A stretch of 38,324 bases of DNA from the IMG/VR virus record IMGVR_UViG_3300010392_000524, positions 1 to 38,324 of that record; one strand, written 5' to 3'. The DNA is from a virus. A program made the translations under genes and the position numbers. Shown here in pieces: positions 9,440 to 34,718 of the stretch (position 1 is the first letter of the stretch; each line of letters opens with the position of its first letter). The notes beneath the pieces were generated by a model. That model was given only the letters and a program-made list of their open reading frames with translations. It did no database searches and had not been told where the DNA came from.

Positions 9440-9800
9440 TTGGCTGTCCTCCCAGATTTTTTCGCATATTAATTATGCCGCTATCCGCTGCACCTTTGAG
9501 GACATAGCCGCAATGCTCTGTGTAGATTTTATAATTTTCTCGCCAGTTCTTGTTTTCTCGATTGACGCTGCAGCTCAAGTGATTCACTCCTAGCCGCCTA
9601 GCTTCGGCAATAGCAATTGCTTCCAAATCTTTCCCATGACCCTTGCCTCTGTAGTGAGGCATAACGAATATATCAGCAATATAGATCTCGTCGTCCTCTA
9701 CATGCGTATCGTAAGCAATGAAACCGTAGGGTCTGGTAACCAGCACTCCCCCAGAAGTCTCGTCGATGTATTTCTGAAACATTTTGCCGAAACTTACCAC
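9429..9800 (-). CDS. GNAT-family N-acetyltransferase
   Basis: A 123-residue GNAT-fold enzyme. The acetyl-CoA-binding motif A is clear: I-Y-I-A-D-I-F-V-M-P-H-Y-R-G-K-G-H-G-K-D-L, with the R/Q-x-x-G-x-G/A loop at R-G-K-G-H-G. A following strand (N-H-L-S-C-S-V-N-R-E-N) and Y-x-x-x-x-G-Y-V-L match motif B. The substrate is unknown. The gene sits inside the structural operon, overlapping both neighbours (GTG start across the previous stop codon), so the enzyme is made late and could modify a virion or host protein. Single-domain GNATs near tail-adaptor genes occur in several podovirus groups. Confidence 0.82.
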   Translation of the reverse strand: MVSFGKMFQKYIDETSGGVLVTRPYGFIAYDTHVEDDEIYIADIFVMPHYRGKGHGKDLEAIAIAEARRLGVNHLSCSVNRENKNWRENYKIYTEHCGYVLKGAADSGIINMRKNLGGQPNGK

Positions 9801-10510
9801 GGTCCACTCTCACTATCACCGTAAGCCTCGTCCAGAGCCTCAACGTCCATTTCAAGTAGGCTGTCCTCATTGTCGTCTGTTAATCGGGACACGGCAGAGA
9901 TGAGTTTTTCGGATTGGAGGTTTAGTCTTTCGAGCATGGTATCGGCCATCGGGTCCCCCTCCTTCTCCATTATCGAAAACTTCGCATGAGCCAAAATAAA
10001 TTGGGGTTTTAAACCCTTCTCGAGGATATCGCTATCGTCCACTAGTCGCCTTGCCTGTCTAATATAAAACAGCTTTACGTTACTTGTAGTGGTTTCCCTA
10101 AAATCTGGGAAAATCTGCAGCTCTGGTCCTGTGTCTTTATTCATCAAACGATAATGGTAGTGGTCGTCAGAGTGAACGGCAGCGAATCTTTCAAGAGGCA
10201 GTTTCTTGATTTTGTACCAACGGCCGCCTGCCGTAGCATTCTGATCGAAACCGTTTTTATCGTAGTAGAGCCCTCGTATTCTGAGGTCGTAAATATCCGA
10301 TGGGAGGGCTACTAGCTTATCGCCTTCGGTCAAAGAGGCATCTACGCTAGTCAGGAAAAAGTCACTAAATGAATCTATGATTAACTGTTCGGCATCCTCG
10401 ATGGCGTCATCGATGTACTGCACGATTTCTGGTTTAGTCACAAAATTCTCTGCGTGCAACTCCTGGTCATTCTGAATTTTTGTTACCAGCCTGTTTAAAT
10501 CCCATACCAT
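9794..10510 (-). CDS. probable head-tail (tail tube) adaptor protein
   Basis: A 238-residue protein reading like the adaptor that joins the portal to the tail in P22/SU10-like podoviruses. An N-terminal helical part (F-V-T-K-P-E-I-V-Q-Y-I-D-D-A-I-E-D-A-E) is followed by a beta domain with V-A-L-P-S-D-I-Y-D-L-R-I-R and a strand pair L-Q-I-F-P-D-F and V-K-L-F-Y-I-R-Q-A-R. It ends with helices and an acidic tail. I chose the ATG at 10510 with AGGA 7 bases upstream, rather than the TTG two codons earlier. The assignment rests on general resemblance and gene order, not on a diagnostic motif. Confidence 0.5.
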   Translation of the reverse strand: MVWDLNRLVTKIQNDQELHAENFVTKPEIVQYIDDAIEDAEQLIIDSFSDFFLTSVDASLTEGDKLVALPSDIYDLRIRGLYYDKNGFDQNATAGGRWYKIKKLPLERFAAVHSDDHYHYRLMNKDTGPELQIFPDFRETTTSNVKLFYIRQARRLVDDSDILEKGLKPQFILAHAKFSIMEKEGDPMADTMLERLNLQSEKLISAVSRLTDDNEDSLLEMDVEALDEAYGDSESGPW

Positions 10511-10550
10511 CGTCAAATCCTTTTAAGGGCAATTGGGGGAACACCAGCTA

Positions 10551-10880
10551 TCAAAAAAAGTTTACCATTAAGGTCCTACCTCCGTCTGGTAACGGCTTAC
10601 CGTTAGAAGGCGGCATATTCCTAGAATTCAGTTGACCCAAAACACCTGAGCGTCTTAGTCCGGCCTCACTCTGCATAAATCCGGCTGTAGAGTGACAAGC
10701 TACACAATATTCAGATAAAAGTCCTTGCATTTGAGCATAGGAAATGCGCTGGCCAGGCTTGGGTCCAGGGTCAGGCGGCTGGCCTGGCTGTTGCTGTCCT
10801 GGCACAGGCACCTGTTTTTCTATCACTCGGTCCTCACCGCCACAGCTTATAAGAATCAAAAAGCAAAATACTCGAAACAT
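10551..10880 (-). CDS. putative c-type cytochrome-like lipoprotein (one CxxCH)
   Basis: A 109-residue secreted lipoprotein. The N-terminus is a short hydrophobic signal ending in a lipobox L-I-S-C with lipidated Cys13. A Pro/Gln-rich linker (about 24-44) follows, then C-V-A-C-H at 59-63 and N-M-P-P at 88-91. CxxCH followed about 25 residues later by M-P-P is the layout of a compact class I cytochrome c, where His63 and Met89 would ligate the heme iron. The protein would lie in the periplasm anchored to a membrane. The ATG has GAGGGGG upstream. It is the second of two adjacent CxxCH lipoproteins inside the structural operon. Heme binding is inferred, not shown. Confidence 0.7.
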   Translation of the reverse strand: MFRVFCFLILISCGGEDRVIEKQVPVPGQQQPGQPPDPGPKPGQRISYAQMQGLLSEYCVACHSTAGFMQSEAGLRRSGVLGQLNSRNMPPSNGKPLPDGGRTLMVNFF

Positions 10881-10894
10881 TTTAAAATCCCCCT

Positions 10895-12349
10895 CTATAA
10901 TGAATCGTCTTGAAATAAAAGCATTTCTTCAACAAAGGTATCGAACCCGTCAACAAACACACTCAGGGGGATAGTGCCTCCCCCTAATACGTTACCAAAA
11001 ACTTGGGAGCTGACAGCTGTTCCCCTAAGACGATTAATACACTCAGGCAGGTCGAGTAAGGTGTACGAGCAAACTTTATTTGCGTCTAGCTGATCTCTAA
11101 AAGGACCAATCAAGGCACCGTTAACAGGGTCCTGTGCAGCTGGGCTTATTCCCAACTCGTCGAGGGCTCTGCCAAAATCAGATTGTATTCTAACAATCGT
11201 CGCAGCAATAGAATCGGGATTGCTAAATATCTGCACTAGGTTTTTTTCTGCAGCTGAGAAGGTGCTAGACCGATTAACATGGTCACGAATCTGTCCGACG
11301 AAAGGAATAAAACCAGCATTATGACAATTACTGCACGCACCCAAACGGATGGTTGGGTCAACGTCTGCGGACTTTAAATCGACCACTATATCATTAGGTG
11401 CATTACTGGCTGCCAAACCGCCAGCCTCTAGCCGTACTCCGAAAAGCCCATTTTCCAAGGAGTAAAAAATCTCTCTTGCAACGTCCTCGAAAATATTTTC
11501 ACTCTGCTGTACTCCCCCAGCATTGGCCATTTCTGCTACGAATGGATTTTCGAAATGATTCTGAGGGTCACCTAATGAGCTGTCGAATGAAGTAAATACA
11601 TAACCATCGTCCGATTCTAGGATTTGATAGCCACGGCTCTTGTTCAAACTTATTTGGCTGGTGGCATTCGCCTCATACAATGCAGATTCGTCGTCGTATT
11701 CTTGTTGGACGTTAACGCCAAGACTTGCGAAGAACAGATCAGTTTCCAACGGCTGTTCGATCAGCGTGCAGTACACCTTACATCCATTATCGCTTAGAGC
11801 GTCAGCCTCCATAACCGAGGTAGCAAATGAGGCAGCGAAAATATACGGCCGTTTTTTCTGGGTCAGAAATTGTATATTCTGATTTCTAATTGTGTCTGAT
11901 ATGAAAAAAAGCAGGTCTACGCTCTCGATAAGAGCCCAGTCAGCCTTAGTCAAATCGTAGTCCTCGAGAGACAATCTGTAGATGCAATCTGAGGTTCCAA
12001 TCGGTGTAGTTTTTGATAGCTTCGGGTCAGTAGAAATACCGTTGAGCAGCTTGTCTACTCCTAAAGCAATCTCCCCCTGATCGCCTAGCCCTGCATTGTA
12101 AAAGTCGCATCCGACGACATATGCAGCGTCCAGCCTGTCATTGTCTGAAGGCAACGCCTGCAAATCTAATAGAATTGTGTCCTCTAAAGTCGATAGATTT
12201 ACAAGGCCTGGCCTACTCGGTGGCTGTACTGGAGGGGGAGGCACTGCAGGGGGAGGCGGTATAATATAAGGTGCCACCGACACCTTTTTAGAAGGTTTCG
12301 TACAAGACCAGGCTATCAGTAATGAAGCTAATAATATGATCTTGTGCAT
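10895..12349 (-). CDS. secreted lipoprotein with CxxCH heme-c motif
   Basis: A 484-residue protein with a signal peptide and probable lipidated Cys16 (A-W-S-C), a polyproline linker (30-46), a long globular region and a C-terminal cytochrome-like part. Around residues 288-365 the order R-E-I-F-Y-S-L-x-N-G-L ... A-P-N-D-I-V-V-D ... C-S-N-C-H (339-343) ... Q-I-R-D-H-V matches, from memory, secreted single-heme proteins on chromosomes of Planctomycetes and delta-type proteobacteria. Four other cysteines could form disulfides. GAGGGG lies 6 bases before the ATG. The gene lies in the middle of the phage late operon, far from any host-like gene. Possible roles are receptor masking or electron transfer; both are inference. 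Confidence 0.7.
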   Translation of the reverse strand: MHKIILLASLLIAWSCTKPSKKVSVAPYIIPPPPAVPPPPVQPPSRPGLVNLSTLEDTILLDLQALPSDNDRLDAAYVVGCDFYNAGLGDQGEIALGVDKLLNGISTDPKLSKTTPIGTSDCIYRLSLEDYDLTKADWALIESVDLLFFISDTIRNQNIQFLTQKKRPYIFAASFATSVMEADALSDNGCKVYCTLIEQPLETDLFFASLGVNVQQEYDDESALYEANATSQISLNKSRGYQILESDDGYVFTSFDSSLGDPQNHFENPFVAEMANAGGVQQSENIFEDVAREIFYSLENGLFGVRLEAGGLAASNAPNDIVVDLKSADVDPTIRLGACSNCHNAGFIPFVGQIRDHVNRSSTFSAAEKNLVQIFSNPDSIAATIVRIQSDFGRALDELGISPAAQDPVNGALIGPFRDQLDANKVCSYTLLDLPECINRLRGTAVSSQVFGNVLGGGTIPLSVFVDGFDTFVEEMLLFQDDSL

Positions 12350-12359
12350 GTTTGACCCC

Positions 12360-12890
12360 TCATTTTAAGATACACAGATTAATCGTATTCCTATTGTTAT
12401 CGTCACAATCATAGGTTTCTTTGCATTCTGTCTCAGAGTATACTATATCACCGTTCCACTTGAAAATGTAGGCGCAGTAGCCATAGTCGCCTGGCTTGTC
12501 ATAGTCATCCTTGCCTTGCTGATAGCCATCGTCGTAGCCGTCATTTTTTCCTTTGTCGTAACCGCCATCGTAGCCGTCCTTTTTTCCCTTGCCGTAGCCA
12601 GTATTATAGCCATTATCGTAGCCGTCTTTTTTCCCCTTGTTATAACCGCCATCGTAGCCGTCCTTTTTTCCCTTGCCGTAGCCATTGTTGTAGGCCTTGT
12701 CATAATTGTCTTGGTAGCCGTCCTGGGCTTTTTTGTAGCCGTCCCGATGCCCTTTCGGATACCAATCATTCTTTCCCTTGTTGTAACCGTTTTGATAAGC
12801 CTGGTCGCAGTAGCCATTCTGAGCGTACTCGGCTGATACCGTTGCTGGTGTTAACGAGAATAGTGAAAGTGCCAAGATCAAATAACGCAT
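12360..12890 (-). CDS. secreted GY-rich repeat protein
   Basis: A 176-residue protein with a cleavable signal peptide (M-R-Y-L-I-L-A-L-S-L-F-S-L, cleavage likely after T-V-S-A at 20). A region of about 100 residues follows, made of tandem G-Y-x-x-G-K-x-D-G-Y-D units, then a cysteine-rich end (Y-C-A-Y-I-F-K-W-N-G-D, then T-E-C, Y-D-C, N-L-C). AGGAGG lies 7 bases before the ATG. The repeats are mirrored in the DNA (12490-12800). It heads a set of three secreted proteins that follow the tail genes on the same transcript. The repeat resembles GY-rich motifs of surface or envelope proteins, but I cannot name a function. Confidence 0.65.
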   Translation of the reverse strand: MRYLILALSLFSLTPATVSAEYAQNGYCDQAYQNGYNKGKNDWYPKGHRDGYKKAQDGYQDNYDKAYNNGYGKGKKDGYDGGYNKGKKDGYDNGYNTGYGKGKKDGYDGGYDKGKNDGYDDGYQQGKDDYDKPGDYGYCAYIFKWNGDIVYSETECKETYDCDDNNRNTINLCILK

Positions 12891-12908: not shown

Positions 12909-13529
12909 TTAAGTAGCGTCATCATGAAAATACACGTTCGCATAGAATTTTGCATCAAATGGTAGGCGTACTCTTGCAGCTACCTTAAAGCCAGCTGGTA
13001 TCTCGTCAACGTAACCAGGGCAAATCATGTTTTGCTCGGTAGGATGAATTTGCCATTCTTTGACATATTTTTTGTCTGGAACCTCAATGAATTCACCCTC
13101 ATTGTCGGGGTCCGGCATTTTTACAATAATATCGAATACGCCACCATAGGTCGGGGTATCAATCCAAACCTTAGTTCTTGCCAGCTTTAAGGCCTTGGCG
13201 AGAGTTATCTCAATATCTGTTTCTTCATCGGCTACCACTGCACCAGAAATGCCCAGTCCACAAAATTCGTGTCCTGCGCTGTCCATAAACCATGTTGAGG
13301 TTACCCTGGCTGGGTCTTTCCCAGAAATGTCGATGAGGCCTGCATCGTAAAAATGTGATTCTTTCACATTCCAGCGATACTGCCTTGTCTCATACTCTGC
13401 GATTGATGACAGGAGCGTATCGACAATTGAATAGGTATTCGGGTCAGGATTTGTAAGTCCTACACCTGGAACACCGAATGATGTATTTAGCAAGTTATCT
13501 GAGATATTGATGAGCGCTTTAACGGTCAT
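12909..13529 (-). CDS. accessory tail or virion protein, unknown
   Basis: A 207-residue soluble protein that I do not recognise. The start at 13529 overlaps the previous stop (ATGA) with GGAGG 5 bases upstream, which favours it over an ATG four codons earlier. Sequence features are mixed beta-type strands (T-K-V-W-I-D-T-P-T-Y-G-G-V-F-D-I-I-V) and a C-terminal strand pair ending in Y-A-N-V-Y-F-H-D-D. It immediately follows two fibre-type genes, so it is probably a tail component or a fibre accessory. Confidence 0.5.
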   Translation of the reverse strand: MTVKALINISDNLLNTSFGVPGVGLTNPDPNTYSIVDTLLSSIAEYETRQYRWNVKESHFYDAGLIDISGKDPARVTSTWFMDSAGHEFCGLGISGAVVADEETDIEITLAKALKLARTKVWIDTPTYGGVFDIIVKMPDPDNEGEFIEVPDKKYVKEWQIHPTEQNMICPGYVDEIPAGFKVAARVRLPFDAKFYANVYFHDDAT

Positions 13530-14215
13530 GTGACCCTCCACAGAGTAAATCTATTATTGAGCATATTTGCGTTCGCTGCGTTTGAAATTTTACCGTAATA
13601 CAATTCAATCGTGTGGGTCAGGCCACCAACGCCAATTGTAAAAGGGACGTGTGGGCTAAGATCATTGTCGTTATTTGGGTCTTTAGTCTCGACTTGACTA
13701 ATAAATATTTCTACTGCGTCTAATAAGATTCTTCGAAACCCGAAGGAAGTACCGTTATCTACAGTCATTTGGCTATGGGATAAAAGAATGTAGCCACCAG
13801 CTGGCAAGACGCCAGTTACTAAGCTGTGATACAAAACGCCAGGCAAGTTTGCGTTACTCGATTCAACGGCTACCTTTGAATCTGTTTCATAATTGCCACC
13901 GAATACTGGCAGAGTATCAATGTCTTGCTTCTGGTCTATCAGCTCATTAATTTGTTCGGCTGTAATATGCAGCGCCAAGGCTGTCGCATCTAAATGTGAT
14001 GAGGCCGAAGTGCCAGCTACTCCTCGAACAACTGTCATGTCGTTTCCAGAGATAGCCGTGACTTCTACCAATTCTGATTCGATTGCTAGATATACTGGCT
14101 TTAGTGGGTCAATCGCTGCAGGACTTTCATTAACAGTAAAAGTTGTTTGAATATTTGTTACAGCTCCGTCGAGCGTCAGGCCGTAGTCATTTATGCCCTT
14201 GTGATATATAGCCAC
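13526..14215 (-). CDS. tail fibre accessory or tip protein
   Basis: A 229-residue protein. The first about 80 residues (T-T-F-T-V ... L-A-I-E-S-E-L-V-E-V-T-A-I-S-G-N-D-M-T-V-V-R-G-V-A-G-T-S-A-S-S-H) are of a beta-rich type common at the N-termini of phage tail and fibre proteins. A helix A-E-Q-I-N-E-L-I follows, then a jelly-roll-like C-terminal part. It uses a GTG start with GGAG 8 bases before it, 12 bases after the end of the collagen-like fibre gene. A role as a fibre partner or receptor-contacting module is inferred from position and general resemblance. Confidence 0.55.
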   Translation of the reverse strand: MAIYHKGINDYGLTLDGAVTNIQTTFTVNESPAAIDPLKPVYLAIESELVEVTAISGNDMTVVRGVAGTSASSHLDATALALHITAEQINELIDQKQDIDTLPVFGGNYETDSKVAVESSNANLPGVLYHSLVTGVLPAGGYILLSHSQMTVDNGTSFGFRRILLDAVEIFISQVETKDPNNDNDLSPHVPFTIGVGGLTHTIELYYGKISNAANANMLNNRFTLWRVT

Positions 14216-23109: not shown

Positions 23110-24402
23110 TTAAACCATTGATGGGAGATTGATTTTTGGAATGTTATGGATTGCGACTGCGCTCCAAGGGTTCGAGTAGATCCAGTCCCCGTTGCAAACA
23201 ATATCCGTCAGGTAGCGATATCCTTGGGTATTTCGGACAGTATAGTATTTCAAACCGTCTGGACTTGTAAGGACGTTAAACATTTTAGCGCCACAATGGA
23301 AGTCCATGTGAGACTTCTTAACGCCTGCAATCCAATCGTCAGCCTGCTCACGCACACCGACTAGCTCGACACTTCCATGCATGCCACCAACGGTAACTGT
23401 GGAATAGCCAGCATAGTCAACTCGCTCTTTCACATTTTTGTAAGCGCCAGACGACAGCTCGAGCCCTAATAGACAGGCTGAAAAGTTCAAATATGACATT
23501 ACAAAACATTCAGGTTCGGCCGCCAGCTGGTGTCCTTTCCGAAGTGCATCGAAAATTAAAGCCAGAAGTTGAGAACCCTCGACTGGGTTAGTTGTACCCC
23601 AGTCGCCAGTTCCGGCTAGGCCGCCAGCGTCATACTGAACCGACTGGCAGAAGGGGCTATCAGCCTTTAATTTCCCTGCGAAACTGTCACTACCGCCAGC
23701 CGAGGCTGGGAGCAACATATCTCTCATGGAACCAAACGCTTCATTCTGTCCGTTGTCAATGTAGATACTTGTCGTGTCGTCGTAGCCTGTCATATCAGCT
23801 GCACCGCCACCCCTGGTCGCACTTACCGTGAGTATTCCGGTGTTTTTATCAATCTTAGTGATATAGAAATCACCACTCGTATCGCCATCGGCAATATGAA
23901 TTTTCAAACCGATATTCATTCTCTCAGGGTGTTCTACTTCGAGTAGGCCATCGTTTGCGCCTGCATATGCAGACCGTACTGAATCAAGGTTACCGCCATT
24001 CAGGATTTGAATGGAAGTAGTTTGCTTCATAAATTTCATCAACTGTTCGATTTGATTTGGGAGGATTTTTAAAAAATTTTGTTCTGAGACCATACCATGA
24101 TCTAGAAATAGGTCCCTAGAGTTAAAAACCAAGGTCCCGTAGATTTCCTTATAGCCTGTCAGTTTTCCTCGAACGTAGCTCGCCTCGTCTATGTCCCCCT
24201 CTGCAGTTAAGCCACCCATCTTAACGCTGGAAGGTAAACTCTGTTGAAATGGAACGATCAAATCGCCGCCTTGCCAGGTTTTGATGACATTCGATTCTTT
24301 CATAAGCCAGTTCATATCACGAAAGGATTCTTCGAGAATATCACTGTAAACAAGGTACTCATTGAGCATTTGGTCGAAGGTGACCGTCTTTTGACTTGAC
24401 AT
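23110..24402 (-). CDS. major capsid protein
   Basis: A 430-residue protein taken as the main shell subunit. It follows a probable scaffold gene, and its sequence has the feel of the P22-like branch of the HK97 fold. There is an N-terminal arm (F-D-Q-M-L-N-E-Y-L-V-Y-S-D-I-L-E-E-S), a long spine-helix region (L-P-N-Q-I-E-Q-L-M-K-F-M-K-Q-T-T-S-I-Q-I), an inserted beta domain (about 150-215) and a C-terminal domain ending in V-C-N-G-D-W-I-Y-S-N-P-W-S-A-V-A. AGGAGTG precedes the ATG and a strong hairpin follows the stop. No delta domain of HK97 type with cleavage site is evident, consistent with a separate scaffold. Confidence 0.78.
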   Translation of the reverse strand: MSSQKTVTFDQMLNEYLVYSDILEESFRDMNWLMKESNVIKTWQGGDLIVPFQQSLPSSVKMGGLTAEGDIDEASYVRGKLTGYKEIYGTLVFNSRDLFLDHGMVSEQNFLKILPNQIEQLMKFMKQTTSIQILNGGNLDSVRSAYAGANDGLLEVEHPERMNIGLKIHIADGDTSGDFYITKIDKNTGILTVSATRGGGAADMTGYDDTTSIYIDNGQNEAFGSMRDMLLPASAGGSDSFAGKLKADSPFCQSVQYDAGGLAGTGDWGTTNPVEGSQLLALIFDALRKGHQLAAEPECFVMSYLNFSACLLGLELSSGAYKNVKERVDYAGYSTVTVGGMHGSVELVGVREQADDWIAGVKKSHMDFHCGAKMFNVLTSPDGLKYYTVRNTQGYRYLTDIVCNGDWIYSNPWSAVAIHNIPKINLPSMV

Positions 24403-25376: not shown

Positions 25377-27476
25377 TTATTGTGAATTACCCGTCATAGG
25401 TAACTGTCCCGATATAGCTCTGACGTTGCCACCCCCTTCCGAGGGGTCCTGTCCTGTTTGCTCTTGATATTGGTTCCCGACTGCGGCCTGTGCTGATAAA
25501 GGCAGACCTTCAATTTTTTCCAGGCTAGTGCCTTGCTGAGATAATTTCTTGATAAGCCAGTCCATTGCTTCGTAAGGAACCCTTGCCCGTTGCTGTTTGC
25601 CTTTTTCAGTCGTTATATAGTAGTCGGCCGAAATCAAACCGCCTCCCGAAGGAATGAAACCTGCGGTCGCAGCCTGTGCCTCTTGTTGCTGCGCTGCCAT
25701 AGATTCGGAATGTTTATCTACACGTTCTTGGAACGCCATTTGTATCTCTTGAGATAGCAAAGGGAAGTCGTTTTGGTTCATGCGCTGAGTGATTCTTCCC
25801 AGCATATACTCGTGATCGGTAGTTTCAAAGAAAAAAGGCATTTCCCCACGGTCGAGCGATAAAATAATCGCATCAGCCTGGTCCTTCTTAACGAGAAGGT
25901 CTGCCAAAATCGGTTCTTCATTAAGGAATGGCGTTTGTCTGACTAACTGGGCTCCGATTTCCGGTGTCATATTAGAGCCAAGGTATTGCATCGCTTGGCC
26001 GATTTGAATTGATTTGCCCATCATTTGAGAAAAATCGTCAGTCCGAGGCACGACCTTAACAATGTATTCCTCCCGAATACTTTTTCGAAACTCCTCAATA
26101 TTCACAGCTTCGTTTTTTCCGACGATTGGAATAACTTTTTCGTCTGGGAGGTAGCGCCTACTCAGCTTTAACGAGTGCTCTACAATCTCAGTTATCAGCT
26201 TCTCAATCTTTTCGGCATAGAGTGAAAAGGCCATTTTCTCACGCATCGTTCTGAACAGCATGGCAAATGCATCGTTATCGGTTCCACTCTTATCGTTATT
26301 ATGCTGTGGAACCTGCGCCACACGATACATTTCCTCAGTTATACGAGACATATATTCTTCATACTGGCGGCCGTCCCGTCCCTCAACAATTTTAGGCTCG
26401 GCACCTGTAAATTGTAGGCCTTTTAATCCATTACCAATTGCTGCAGTGGTCATTTTCGAGCCAGCACTGTAGAGGACCGTTGAGTGACCGAGTACAATTG
26501 ATTCCTTGATAATGGCAGCTGCACACCTATTTATCTCTGTCTGGAAACCCTTACAAATTTTGACGACAGAGTAGGCTCTAGGATTGGCTGGCGATTCATC
26601 ATACAGGGCTGAGAAAATGCAGAACCCGTCAGGCAGCTCACCCTCCTCGAGTATTCCATGAGAAGTAGCAAAATAGAAATATCCGTTTGGAAATTCTTGG
26701 CTAGGTTTGAAGTAGAATTCTCGGATTTGGACGCCATCTTTAATATCGGAGTAGATGCCCGTTACGCCATCGAACCATTGATAATTGTCCTCGGACCCAC
26801 CAGCAACAAACTTACTCTTTTTCTCGTCGTGTTTATATTTGGCTTCAAGTTGTTCTCTGGGTAGTAACTTCCTATAGCAAATCCATTTAACTTCTCGCTG
26901 GCTATCGGCTTCGGGGTCAGTCAGGACATTGTACGGTGCCATTTTCTCATAGACTATTCCTCCCTCCCATTTTGGGACGGGTTCGCCTACGACATTCCCC
27001 AATTCGTCCAATTCGGTATCGTAACCTAAAAACTTGCCTGCGTTATCGTCCTGAAAAACCTTTGCATAGGTTTCGCCACAAACGACAAAATCATGGATGA
27101 GTTTGGAATAGAAGTCAGTCAGGTCATGCTCGACCTTAAGGCTATCGTAAACAGCTGTATTCAGCTCGGCCGATTTCTGATCTGCTAGTTCCTTGGCATT
27201 GGCTGGTTGGATGGCTGCGCCTGGCGCTCTGTTCTGAATGGAGTTTCTTATGAATTTTGTGATGTTTTGTATATGATTTTTGGTTATTCGTATCTGGGTT
27301 TTTGATTTCTGTTCTCGAAAATATGGACCCCTGGCATTAGAAAAACGGTCACGTCTAGGATGGTGATACCCAATATCCAATAGGATATTTGACCGGATTT
27401 CGGCAAAATGAGAATTTAATGCTGTGTCAGCCTCTTGATACAGGCTGTTCAGTTTTGCCAGGTCTTTCAACGTCAT
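25377..27476 (-). CDS. portal protein (P22-like)
   Basis: A 699-residue protein, close to the length of P22-type portals. The dodecameric portal would form the channel for packaging and ejection. Features include the N-terminal Y-x-x-A-x-x-A-L-N-S-H-F-A-E-I-R-S-N, a wing region with a D-P-E-A motif (V-L-T-D-P-E-A-D-S) and Y-R-K-L-L-P-R-E-Q, then V-V-K-I-C-K-G-F-Q-T-E-I-N-R. The region after about 560 is Gln/Ala-rich and may form a C-terminal barrel like the long barrel of P22. The gene overlaps the small gene upstream by 50 bases, and its start has only a close GAGG. It sits between terminase and scaffold, the standard order. Confidence 0.82.
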   Translation of the reverse strand: MTLKDLAKLNSLYQEADTALNSHFAEIRSNILLDIGYHHPRRDRFSNARGPYFREQKSKTQIRITKNHIQNITKFIRNSIQNRAPGAAIQPANAKELADQKSAELNTAVYDSLKVEHDLTDFYSKLIHDFVVCGETYAKVFQDDNAGKFLGYDTELDELGNVVGEPVPKWEGGIVYEKMAPYNVLTDPEADSQREVKWICYRKLLPREQLEAKYKHDEKKSKFVAGGSEDNYQWFDGVTGIYSDIKDGVQIREFYFKPSQEFPNGYFYFATSHGILEEGELPDGFCIFSALYDESPANPRAYSVVKICKGFQTEINRCAAAIIKESIVLGHSTVLYSAGSKMTTAAIGNGLKGLQFTGAEPKIVEGRDGRQYEEYMSRITEEMYRVAQVPQHNNDKSGTDNDAFAMLFRTMREKMAFSLYAEKIEKLITEIVEHSLKLSRRYLPDEKVIPIVGKNEAVNIEEFRKSIREEYIVKVVPRTDDFSQMMGKSIQIGQAMQYLGSNMTPEIGAQLVRQTPFLNEEPILADLLVKKDQADAIILSLDRGEMPFFFETTDHEYMLGRITQRMNQNDFPLLSQEIQMAFQERVDKHSESMAAQQQEAQAATAGFIPSGGGLISADYYITTEKGKQQRARVPYEAMDWLIKKLSQQGTSLEKIEGLPLSAQAAVGNQYQEQTGQDPSEGGGNVRAISGQLPMTGNSQ

Positions 27477-27754: not shown

Positions 27755-29299
27755 TTACTCCGAAAATAATGCTGCAGCGTCCGCTAGATTCTGGTCGATA
27801 GAATCACCCCAGTCCTGGCCTTCTACTCTGTCTAATCCCTTATAGAACCTCATTCGAGGGCATGTTTCCTCGTCGTCTTTTTTCTTTTTCTTTGACCGTG
27901 TCGATGTAATTTTGATCGGACAGCTACTTAATCCATATCGCAGAGCGTCCGCACAATCGTCTTTCCTGTTATTCTTCTTTGTTTTTTCTAGAATAGAGCC
28001 CAGCTCTTTCATTAATTCGCCAGTGTTACCCGTCCCTGGTCCCGTAAATATTTTTAGTTGACGGGTTCCGAAAATAGAATTTAAGAGCCCTACACCATGC
28101 TCATGGTTTTTATTGGCTGGCAGCATAGCCACACCCTCACGCTTCGCCATCTCCCCCAAGTCCGTTGCCGAGCCGTCATACCTAGTATGAGGTTCCACAC
28201 CGAGCATTAGTTTTAGTTTTTTATATTGCTTCAGAAGGTCCCCTTGTGTAATTCGATCCTTTCCAGACTTCCAGACCAGCCTGACCCTGCACTTCACATA
28301 GTCTTGATGCACCGCAATAAAACAAATAGATGAAGGGTGTCCGCTGGCACCGCCAGCTCCAAAATCAATGCCGCACCAATATTCCCAATTTTCTATTTGC
28401 TTTTTGTTTAACGGCAGAGAGTTATGGACGCCATCATATTCCTGGTATAATAAGCCGCTGTCTTTTACGAACCTTCCCCAAACCCTTCGCTGTATTTCTC
28501 TGTCAGAGGAATACAGTGGTATTATGTCCTTCTCGATGCGCTCTTTAGTAAAAATATCCGAAGGGCTGCCGTCTGCGTAGCTCAGGCAATCGTACAATGA
28601 AATCTGCAATTTGAACGCTTCGGGAAATTTCTCTGTGGCCTCACCTTGCATTTCCATTGTCTGATAAAACATATCCTGGCCGAGGGTAGCAGTAAATACC
28701 GACGACACTAGACCACTTCCAAGGCCAGCTCTGGCTGACGTTCGAACCATAATTTCGTCCCAGTGCGCCTCTGGGCATTCCTCATCTAACGCGACGTAGT
28801 CAGCACTTATTGCCTGCATACTAGAGGTTTGCTGGGTGTAGTAACGCCAATGGATTGTCACGCCTGTATTAAATACGATGGCTTCAATATTCTTGTCCTT
28901 GTCTTTCAAGACTTTCCAGCCATATTGAGGATGGTCTTTATAGTCCTCCTTTGGCAGATAAAATTTCTTCCATTTTTCATCAAACTCTATTTTTCCGGTC
29001 CTCTGGTCAGGGTAGAAATAAACAAAGAGTGAGGGTCTTGCCTTGCCAAAATATTTCGGCCACAGCTCCGGTCTGGTGGCGAGGTTTAGCGTCTTTATTA
29101 TCAGAATAGAGGACTTTCCAATCTGATTTGCAGCTGTGATAAATGCCAGCCGACCGACATAAAGCCAGAATGCTTTTTGCCATTCATACAGTTTATGCAG
29201 ATTGCATTCGTCACCGTTTTCGCTCAGAAGGAATGGCAATTGTTGCCTTTTCCTCTTAATTCTTTGCAGCTCCTCAAGGTATCTTTTTCTTTGGTCCAA
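27755..29299 (-). CDS. terL: terminase large subunit
   Basis: The packaging motor: an ATPase that pumps DNA into the prohead and a nuclease that cuts concatemers. The ATPase domain has Walker A A-A-N-Q-I-G-K-S (56-63) and Walker B Y-V-A-L-D-E (168-173). The RNase H-like nuclease domain has G-I-D-F-G (310-314), a D-G-S-A-T-D segment (375-380) and D-D-C-A-D-A (447-452), supplying the acidic metal ligands. At 514 residues the length is normal. The start is a TTG with GGAGG 6 bases upstream, lying inside the end of the small-subunit gene. With the scaffold and P22-type portal, headful packaging is likely but not proven. Confidence 0.9.
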   Translation of the reverse strand: MDQRKRYLEELQRIKRKRQQLPFLLSENGDECNLHKLYEWQKAFWLYVGRLAFITAANQIGKSSILIIKTLNLATRPELWPKYFGKARPSLFVYFYPDQRTGKIEFDEKWKKFYLPKEDYKDHPQYGWKVLKDKDKNIEAIVFNTGVTIHWRYYTQQTSSMQAISADYVALDEECPEAHWDEIMVRTSARAGLGSGLVSSVFTATLGQDMFYQTMEMQGEATEKFPEAFKLQISLYDCLSYADGSPSDIFTKERIEKDIIPLYSSDREIQRRVWGRFVKDSGLLYQEYDGVHNSLPLNKKQIENWEYWCGIDFGAGGASGHPSSICFIAVHQDYVKCRVRLVWKSGKDRITQGDLLKQYKKLKLMLGVEPHTRYDGSATDLGEMAKREGVAMLPANKNHEHGVGLLNSIFGTRQLKIFTGPGTGNTGELMKELGSILEKTKKNNRKDDCADALRYGLSSCPIKITSTRSKKKKKDDEETCPRMRFYKGLDRVEGQDWGDSIDQNLADAAALFSE

Positions 29300-32389: not shown

Positions 32390-32737
32390 ATGTCCAAAAA
32401 AAGTTACCTGACATATCCTAGAGGATATGACGATTTACCAGAGGACGCATTAAATGGCTGTGGTCCGGCTGGCTGGAAATTTGATTTAGTCCCCGACACT
32501 ATCTGGGGTTTATGCGTGACTGAGGCCTGCAATATCCATGACGCTATGTATTACACTGGTCTTGACGAGAAGGACCGAACGCATGCCGATAACACATTCC
32601 TCAACAATCTAAACAGAATCATAACTCATGAAAGTAGGTTTAAGTTTCTTGCCAGGTTTAGGAGGCGTAGAGCTTGGCTTATGTTTGCAGCTGTCAGAAA
32701 ATTTGGCGGTAACCATTTTAGTGACTATGGTTCTTAA
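32390..32737 (+). CDS. phospholipase A2-like protein
   Basis: A 115-residue protein with a PLA2-type active site: N-G-C-G-P-A-G (22-28) as a calcium-loop-like turn, then A-C-N-I-H-D (46-51), where His50-Asp51 would be the catalytic dyad partner and calcium ligand, and a later D67 in T-H-A-D-N-T-F-L-N-N-L. This compact pattern occurs in small phage and bacterial proteins. It would hydrolyse membrane phospholipids or merely share the fold. AAGGGG lies 7 bases before the ATG. There is no signal peptide. Near the lysis genes, a role in release or entry is plausible. Confidence 0.6.
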   Translation: MSKKSYLTYPRGYDDLPEDALNGCGPAGWKFDLVPDTIWGLCVTEACNIHDAMYYTGLDEKDRTHADNTFLNNLNRIITHESRFKFLARFRRRRAWLMFAAVRKFGGNHFSDYGS

Positions 32738-34078: not shown

Positions 34079-34293
34079 ATCCAAAACCCTTCGATACAGG
34101 GAGCGTCATTAAAATTACGATTAATCCAAAATAGTTCCTTTGGTGCCATAAAATCAAGAATTTCCTGAAAAACCTTTGAGTGAATGGAAATATTAGCGTC
34201 TGCGTGCGCTCCATTCGCATCAATTTCAGTTTTTCTAATCACATATTCCCCTGGAAAGTCCTTGGGATTTTTATAAAGTGTGTAGATTTTCAA
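34075..34293 (-). CDS. hypothetical protein in the lysis cassette
   Basis: A 72-residue soluble protein that I do not recognise. It begins four bases inside the end of the NlpC/P60 gene and overlaps the next small membrane gene, so it belongs to the same transcript. It has two aromatic-rich stretches (K-E-L-F-W-I-N-R-N-F) and no signal peptide. Confidence 0.45.
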   Translation of the reverse strand: MKIYTLYKNPKDFPGEYVIRKTEIDANGAHADANISIHSKVFQEILDFMAPKELFWINRNFNDAPCIEGFWI

Positions 34294-34718
34294 GTAAAGT
34301 CCTTCACATAGGCTGGGTAGTCAGGGTAAATAGTTTGAACCAAATCTCTCCTAGCTGACAAAGGCCTGATTCTACAAAAAGCATTGTGTTTGGCTGCGTC
34401 CGCTGGGGTCTTGGTTCGGGAACCGCCACCGCCAGCCTCGATCACTCGAGCCTCATCAATCATAAATGCAATATGAGTTATACGCTCATGAGTACCGTAA
34501 AAGGCTAATGCTCCGGCATCCCTGTAGTCAACTAAACCATTCGATAGGAAGTGCTTATAGAGCCCGTGTGCCGTCTGGTCACCAGGAGGGTCCATTCCTA
34601 CACTTGCCAGTATCTCTTGCGCCAGGCCGCTACAATCGAACCCTAGGACAGTATCGTCGCCTCCCCAGATATACGGCAGGCCTAAAAATGAATTTGCATA
34701 GTCTATGAGTGTCCGCAC
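34290..34718 (-). CDS. NlpC/P60-family peptidase, probable endolysin
   Basis: A 142-residue cysteine peptidase that should cut the peptide part of peptidoglycan. The active-site cysteine is in F-D-C-S-G-L-A-Q-E near residue 29, the histidine in R-I-T-H-I-A-F-M near residue 82, and V-I-E-A-G-G-G-G follows as the usual third element. G-L-P-Y-I-W-G-G-D at about 13-21 is the family's N-terminal hallmark. There is no signal peptide, so a holin would be needed for export. It starts at a GTG with GAGGAG 6 bases upstream, and small membrane proteins lie on both sides. It could also be virion-associated, but the context favours lysis. Confidence 0.8.
   Translation of the reverse strand: MRTLIDYANSFLGLPYIWGGDDTVLGFDCSGLAQEILASVGMDPPGDQTAHGLYKHFLSNGLVDYRDAGALAFYGTHERITHIAFMIDEARVIEAGGGGSRTKTPADAAKHNAFCRIRPLSARRDLVQTIYPDYPAYVKDFT

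Follow-up and report, generated by a model that had tools for sequence, protein, structure and literature searches.

Two adjacent genes in the late operon of a virus encode exported proteins that each carry a CxxCH heme-c attachment motif. On balance, sequence comparison leads us to regard them as a horizontally moving two-gene phage cassette for a pair of periplasmic heme-c proteins. Because the same gene pair is also present in two unrelated kinds of phage, some phages probably install a small redox device of their own in the envelope of the infected bacterium. Phage-encoded c-type cytochromes are hardly documented. If heme is truly attached, these phages would depend on the host cytochrome maturation system and exploit it late in infection, and a new, testable layer of envelope manipulation would be added.

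Position of the gene pair in the late operon

The window, which is the whole stretch of 38,324 nucleotides analysed here, represents one virus record (IMG/VR record IMGVR_UViG_3300010392_000524, positions 1 to 38,324) with its late operon on the minus strand. The operon runs in the order TerL, portal, capsid-type gene, fibre and tail genes, followed by the lipoprotein pair and an SU10-adaptor-like gene. The features are listed below from upstream to downstream.

27755-29299, minus strand: TerL, late operon
25377-27476, minus strand: portal, late operon
23110-24402, minus strand: capsid-type gene, late operon
12909-13541: gene of unknown function, upstream of the repeat-protein gene, with fibre genes beyond
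12360-12890, minus strand: secreted Gly/Tyr/Lys-rich repeat protein, 176 aa, next upstream of the pair
10895-12349, minus strand: large exported probable lipoprotein, 484 aa, with one CxxCH (from signal, motif and phage homologues)
12302-12304, minus strand: lipobox Cys16 of the large protein, A-W-S-C
11321-11335, minus strand: CSNCH heme-c attachment motif, residues 339-343 of the large protein, conserved in homologues
11279-11293, minus strand: QIRDH, residues 353-357 of the large protein
10551-10880, minus strand: small exported lipoprotein, 109 aa, with a minimal cytochrome c-like domain (CVACH...NMPP; from motifs and homologues)
10842-10844, minus strand: lipobox Cys13 of the small protein, from sequence
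10692-10706, minus strand: CVACH heme-c attachment motif, residues 59-63 of the small protein, conserved in homologues
10608-10619, minus strand: NMPP, residues 88-91, presumed distal Met ligand loop of the small protein, from MPP conservation
9794-10516, minus strand: SU10-adaptor-like head-tail gene, next downstream of the pair (context only)

The pair is packed into the late operon, with 14 bp between the two genes and 34 bp between the pair and the SU10-adaptor-like gene downstream. Good ribosome binding sites, noted already in the first-pass annotation, are present at both genes (GAGGGG for the large gene and AGAGGGGG for the small one). No promoter or terminator of the pair's own stood out at the locus; it is the gene order that points to late expression. 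The same annotation had placed the pair between tail-fibre and tail-adaptor genes. The adaptor side holds, the downstream gene having 13 homologues in related phages and a Pfam match just under the threshold (E 8.9e-6, 26.7 bits against a cut-off of 27). On the fibre side, the repeat-protein gene and the gene of unknown function intervene. The repeat protein, built from GYxxGxxDGY-type repeats and adjoining the pair, is absent from the other pair-bearing phages and is therefore probably not a part of the cassette. Elsewhere in the window, a 115-aa protein (32390-32737) contains a phospholipase A2-like motif, CNIHDAMYY, with a match to Pfam Phospholip_A2_4 below the cut-off (E 0.0013).

Heme motifs of the two proteins

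Both open reading frames exist as first described, with export signals and CxxCH motifs (109 aa with CVACH and NMPP; 484 aa with CSNCH). Among the main open reading frames of the window, CxxCH is found in these two proteins only. Shuffling of the mature sequences yielded CxxCH in 39 of 200,000 trials for the small protein (about 2 in 10,000) and in 29 of 50,000 for the large protein (about 6 in 10,000). Phage homologues of both proteins retain the motif, which supports the original heme-c-type reading.

The signal peptide of the small protein is followed by a canonical lipobox, L-I-S-C. In the alignment of its homologues, the C, the CH and MPP are all invariant, MPP across four phage homologues, and the heme motif takes the form CX4CH in the two homologues from contigs L095 and L096. 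Similar to class I monoheme cytochromes c (Pfam Cytochrome_CBB3, PSCyt1), the small protein has CxxCH, a Met-Pro loop and a predicted C-terminal helix in the expected order. However, it is shorter, with 26 residues spanning from His to Met, it stays below every curated cut-off, and it has homologues with CX4CH. The match to Pfam Cytochrome_CBB3 is sub-threshold (E 0.095, 13.5 bits against a cut-off of 27), and neither window protein reached a curated cytochrome cut-off in Pfam or NCBIfam. No phage match was obtained for the small protein by single-sequence search. A family profile that includes the Neorhizobium domain described below matched mostly cytochromes c in the PDB (best E 0.003), whereas the phage-only profile gave a single weak match, to the multiheme protein MccA (E 1.6). 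The AlphaFold2 model, made from a three-sequence input, has a pLDDT of 54.8, too low for conclusions on the fold; the order of its helices fits cytochrome c, and Foldseek returned no match to a cytochrome. We propose that the small protein may be a minimal His/Met cytochrome c.

The signal peptide of the large protein ends in W-S-C, of which S-C is conserved in homologues and the Trp at position -2 departs from the usual lipobox. Five residues, Cys339, Cys342, His343, Gly346 and Arg355, are invariant in the five aligned members, giving the signature CxxCH-x2-G plus Arg, the latter within QIRDH. Only the three phage proteins of lipoprotein type retain His357 of QIRDH, which is there a candidate second axial ligand; the megaphage and Neorhizobium forms lack it, and the alignment contains no distal ligand conserved throughout the family. 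The large protein alone matched nothing in the phage, plasmid, PHROG, NCBIfam and PDB searches. No model for its domain is held in Pfam or NCBIfam, and a profile of the domain produced only chance hits against the PDB. The AlphaFold2 model, again from a three-sequence input, has a pLDDT of 33.6, likewise too low for conclusions on the fold. The family alignment appears to define an unannotated heme-motif domain common to phages and bacteria, and the large protein would represent this distinct domain with a heme c of its own.

Occurrence of the pair in phages

Exact octapeptides are not shared between the homologues, and searches of viral contigs with the single proteins therefore found nothing. 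Viral contigs were instead scanned with a pattern of the heme motif followed by QxR-H downstream, of which a slightly looser form was checked on the window first. The viral prevalence obtained in this way is a lower bound, because megaphage forms would escape a pattern that demands QxR-H. The survey for the pair proposed in the first-pass annotation recovered it in the sibling contigs L095 and L096 of one lineage and in a 595-kb phage, LR756511.1, and in none of the searched records related to the window phage.

The large homologues of the siblings (L095 9533-10990 and L096 4301-5758) are full-length, with E values of 1.6e-66 and 2.6e-61; both have 485 aa, 33-35% identity to the window's protein and the motif CMKCH. 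Small homologues of 120 and 128 aa (E 1.6e-6 and 2e-4) adjoin them in the same order. This lineage has a Pfam Phage_portal protein, an S78 protease, an HK97-type capsid and TerL, and a long tape-measure-like gene. Its TerL, portal and capsid genes are unrelated to those of the window, and its pair lies before TerL instead of before an adaptor gene. Beyond the pair, this lineage and the window have only an NlpC/P60 lysin (62%), a gene for a 130-aa protein without functional assignment (52-59%) and a nuclease of the DUF3799 type (23%) in common. These genes fit an exchange within a common host pool. The lysin of the window (34290-34718) is 62% identical to that of L097 (14388-14810), which belongs to the unrelated cassette-bearing phage, and this likeness suggests that both phages may infect a common host group.

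In the huge phage LR756511, the large gene (482984-484816; 611 aa, CIVCH) is directly followed downstream by a gene for a 243-aa exported protein with CAQCH..RMPP. The latter matches Cytochrome_CBB3 below the cut-off (E 0.002, 18.9 bits against 27). The two-gene arrangement, the heme motifs and the RMPP loop are as in the window pair. However, the large protein is 20% identical to that of the window and has a signal anchor or cleaved signal rather than a lipobox. A second copy of the large gene, encoding 392 aa with CIACH, is located elsewhere in the same phage (L107 5725-6903, at 361.7-362.9 kb), near nucleotide-metabolism-like genes. A further match with CxxCH, in L090, was not confirmed as a relative of the large protein.

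The portal protein search yielded 42 contigs related to the window phage. In the longer related records, searched whole, neither protein was found beyond weak matches to the N-terminal signal or linker. The closest record spanning the slot, G007 (portal 55% identical), has a 90-aa lipoprotein there instead of the pair (L051 4489-4761). Past the lipobox, this lipoprotein has a segment that resembles the start of the large protein (score 70, reached by none of 3000 shuffles), while the heme part of the large gene and the small gene are both missing. Therefore, the slot varies within the lineage of the window phage. The joint loss of both genes would fit a functional pair, in this one case. Two distant relatives, L011 (9869-10432, 11250-11789, 11797-14631, 14606-16195 and 16489-17040) and L056 (8158-8751 and 5797-6774), have several genes whose products bear apparent N-terminal signal peptides; these genes lie in the structural region, on the downstream side of the capsid gene.

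These distributions bear on two other readings. The location of the pair within the late structural operon of the window would suit a virion-attached adsorption factor, as first proposed. We now disfavour this idea and hold it to be very improbable, given the lipoprotein signals on both proteins, the position before TerL in the other lineage, and the lack of the pair in the other relatives searched, whose head and portal are of the same kind. The stub in G007 would suit a second reading, in which the pair is degenerate cargo: chance acquisitions of host lipoprotein genes that are now decaying. Comparison of L095 with L096 gave a dN/dS of 0.063 for the small gene and of 0.036-0.044 for TerL, portal and capsid; for the large gene dN is 0.10 and dS is saturated. 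Both genes are maintained under purifying selection, the motifs are conserved in three phage settings, and the composition of the pair genes is not far from that of each carrier phage. Together these argue against decay, for which we see very little chance.

Cellular counterpart and possible role of the pair

The likeness of the C-terminal part of the large protein to chromosomal proteins, claimed at first reading, is real and spans almost the whole protein. A plasmid of Neorhizobium petrolearium (NZ_CP123001.1) encodes a 1157-aa protein annotated as 'c-type cytochrome' (WP_227705619.1), in which Pfam cytochrome c domains (Cytochrom_C over the cut-off) are fused in front of the large domain. 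A tblastn search with the L096 phage protein as query detected the large domain (E 3e-9); the profile match to WP_227705619.1 holds partly by construction, as the alignment behind the profile includes the Neorhizobium domain. The large domain is common to both almost end to end, including CxxCH, but the Neorhizobium form is one protein of a cellular plasmid rather than two lipoproteins, and it has three cytochrome c domains at the N-terminus as well as an extension at the C-terminus. The small domain and the Neorhizobium cytochrome c domain are weakly linked, with 17% identity. The cellular occurrences found are a single plasmid protein and a fragment from a prophage flank (L099), with none in 397 Campylobacterota genomes. 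The small cytochrome c domain has a gene of its own next to the large one in the window, L095, L096 and LR756511, and is fused in Neorhizobium. The constant adjacency in phages and this fusion support a physical or functional partnership of the two proteins.

Based on these comparisons, we propose a mechanism in which the covalent attachment of heme, the lipid anchor, expression late in infection and the exchange of electrons are inferred. Late in infection, both proteins would be exported by Sec and lipidated at the first Cys, as their sequence signals predict, and the host cytochrome c maturation system would attach one heme per CxxCH. Electrons may then move between the small and the large protein, in either direction, at the surface of the envelope, an exchange suggested by the conserved adjacency in phages together with the fused cellular form. 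This might alter the redox chemistry of the host envelope or block something there, to the benefit of the phage. In its boldest form, the proposal describes a two-protein periplasmic heme relay with an undescribed heme-c domain, exchanged among podovirus-like, siphovirus-like and huge phages, that uses redox chemistry to take control of the envelope of the infected cell or to close it off, for example through redox-driven superinfection exclusion; in this full form we find it rather unlikely.

As for what the phage might gain, the leading candidates are superinfection exclusion and redox support. A known theme in superinfection exclusion is the small exported phage lipoprotein encoded in an accessory position (T5 Llp, Cor). 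On this model, the window proteins would sit on the host envelope and keep other phages from adsorbing or delivering their DNA, or mask a receptor, with heme as a structural element or a relic. The movement of the cassette between phage lineages and the recurrence of other lipoprotein genes in relatives of the window phage favour such a role. However, simple blocking requires neither conserved heme motifs and a Met loop under purifying selection nor a cellular fusion to cytochromes. We rate it as improbable, and the pair had no match in an anti-phage defence library. Between exclusion and envelope redox chemistry, both raised in the first-pass annotation, the data favour a redox pair of presumed benefit to the phage, with the cellular fusion of cytochrome c and the large domain pointing that way.

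The pair might also act as auxiliary metabolic redox genes that aid host respiration or detoxify periplasmic reactive oxygen or nitrogen species during infection. Phage contigs are reported to carry a c-type cytochrome gene, SoxD, as an auxiliary gene, and the two reported phage SoxD copies are without one or both heme motifs (PMC8190135). Viral cbb3 oxidase genes have been reported as well (PMC3474794). In addition, the Neorhizobium 'c-type cytochrome' gene adjoins a ferredoxin reductase family gene. Against this role, the pair has no neighbouring gene from any other recognised metabolic pathway, either in the window or in L095/L096, and the large domain is without a known enzymatic relative; we give it a slightly smaller chance than exclusion by simple blocking. 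SoxD itself is a sulfane dehydrogenase subunit that acts with SoxC and is unrelated to the window proteins: the pair had no SoxD match in NCBIfam or Pfam, and no SoxC was found nearby. For a dedicated phage heme-c lipoprotein pair, no paper was found in our incomplete literature library.

The gene cluster of the Neorhizobium plasmid (L101 3071-10013) encodes caspase family, OmpA family and ferredoxin reductase family proteins together with the cytochrome that contains the large domain.
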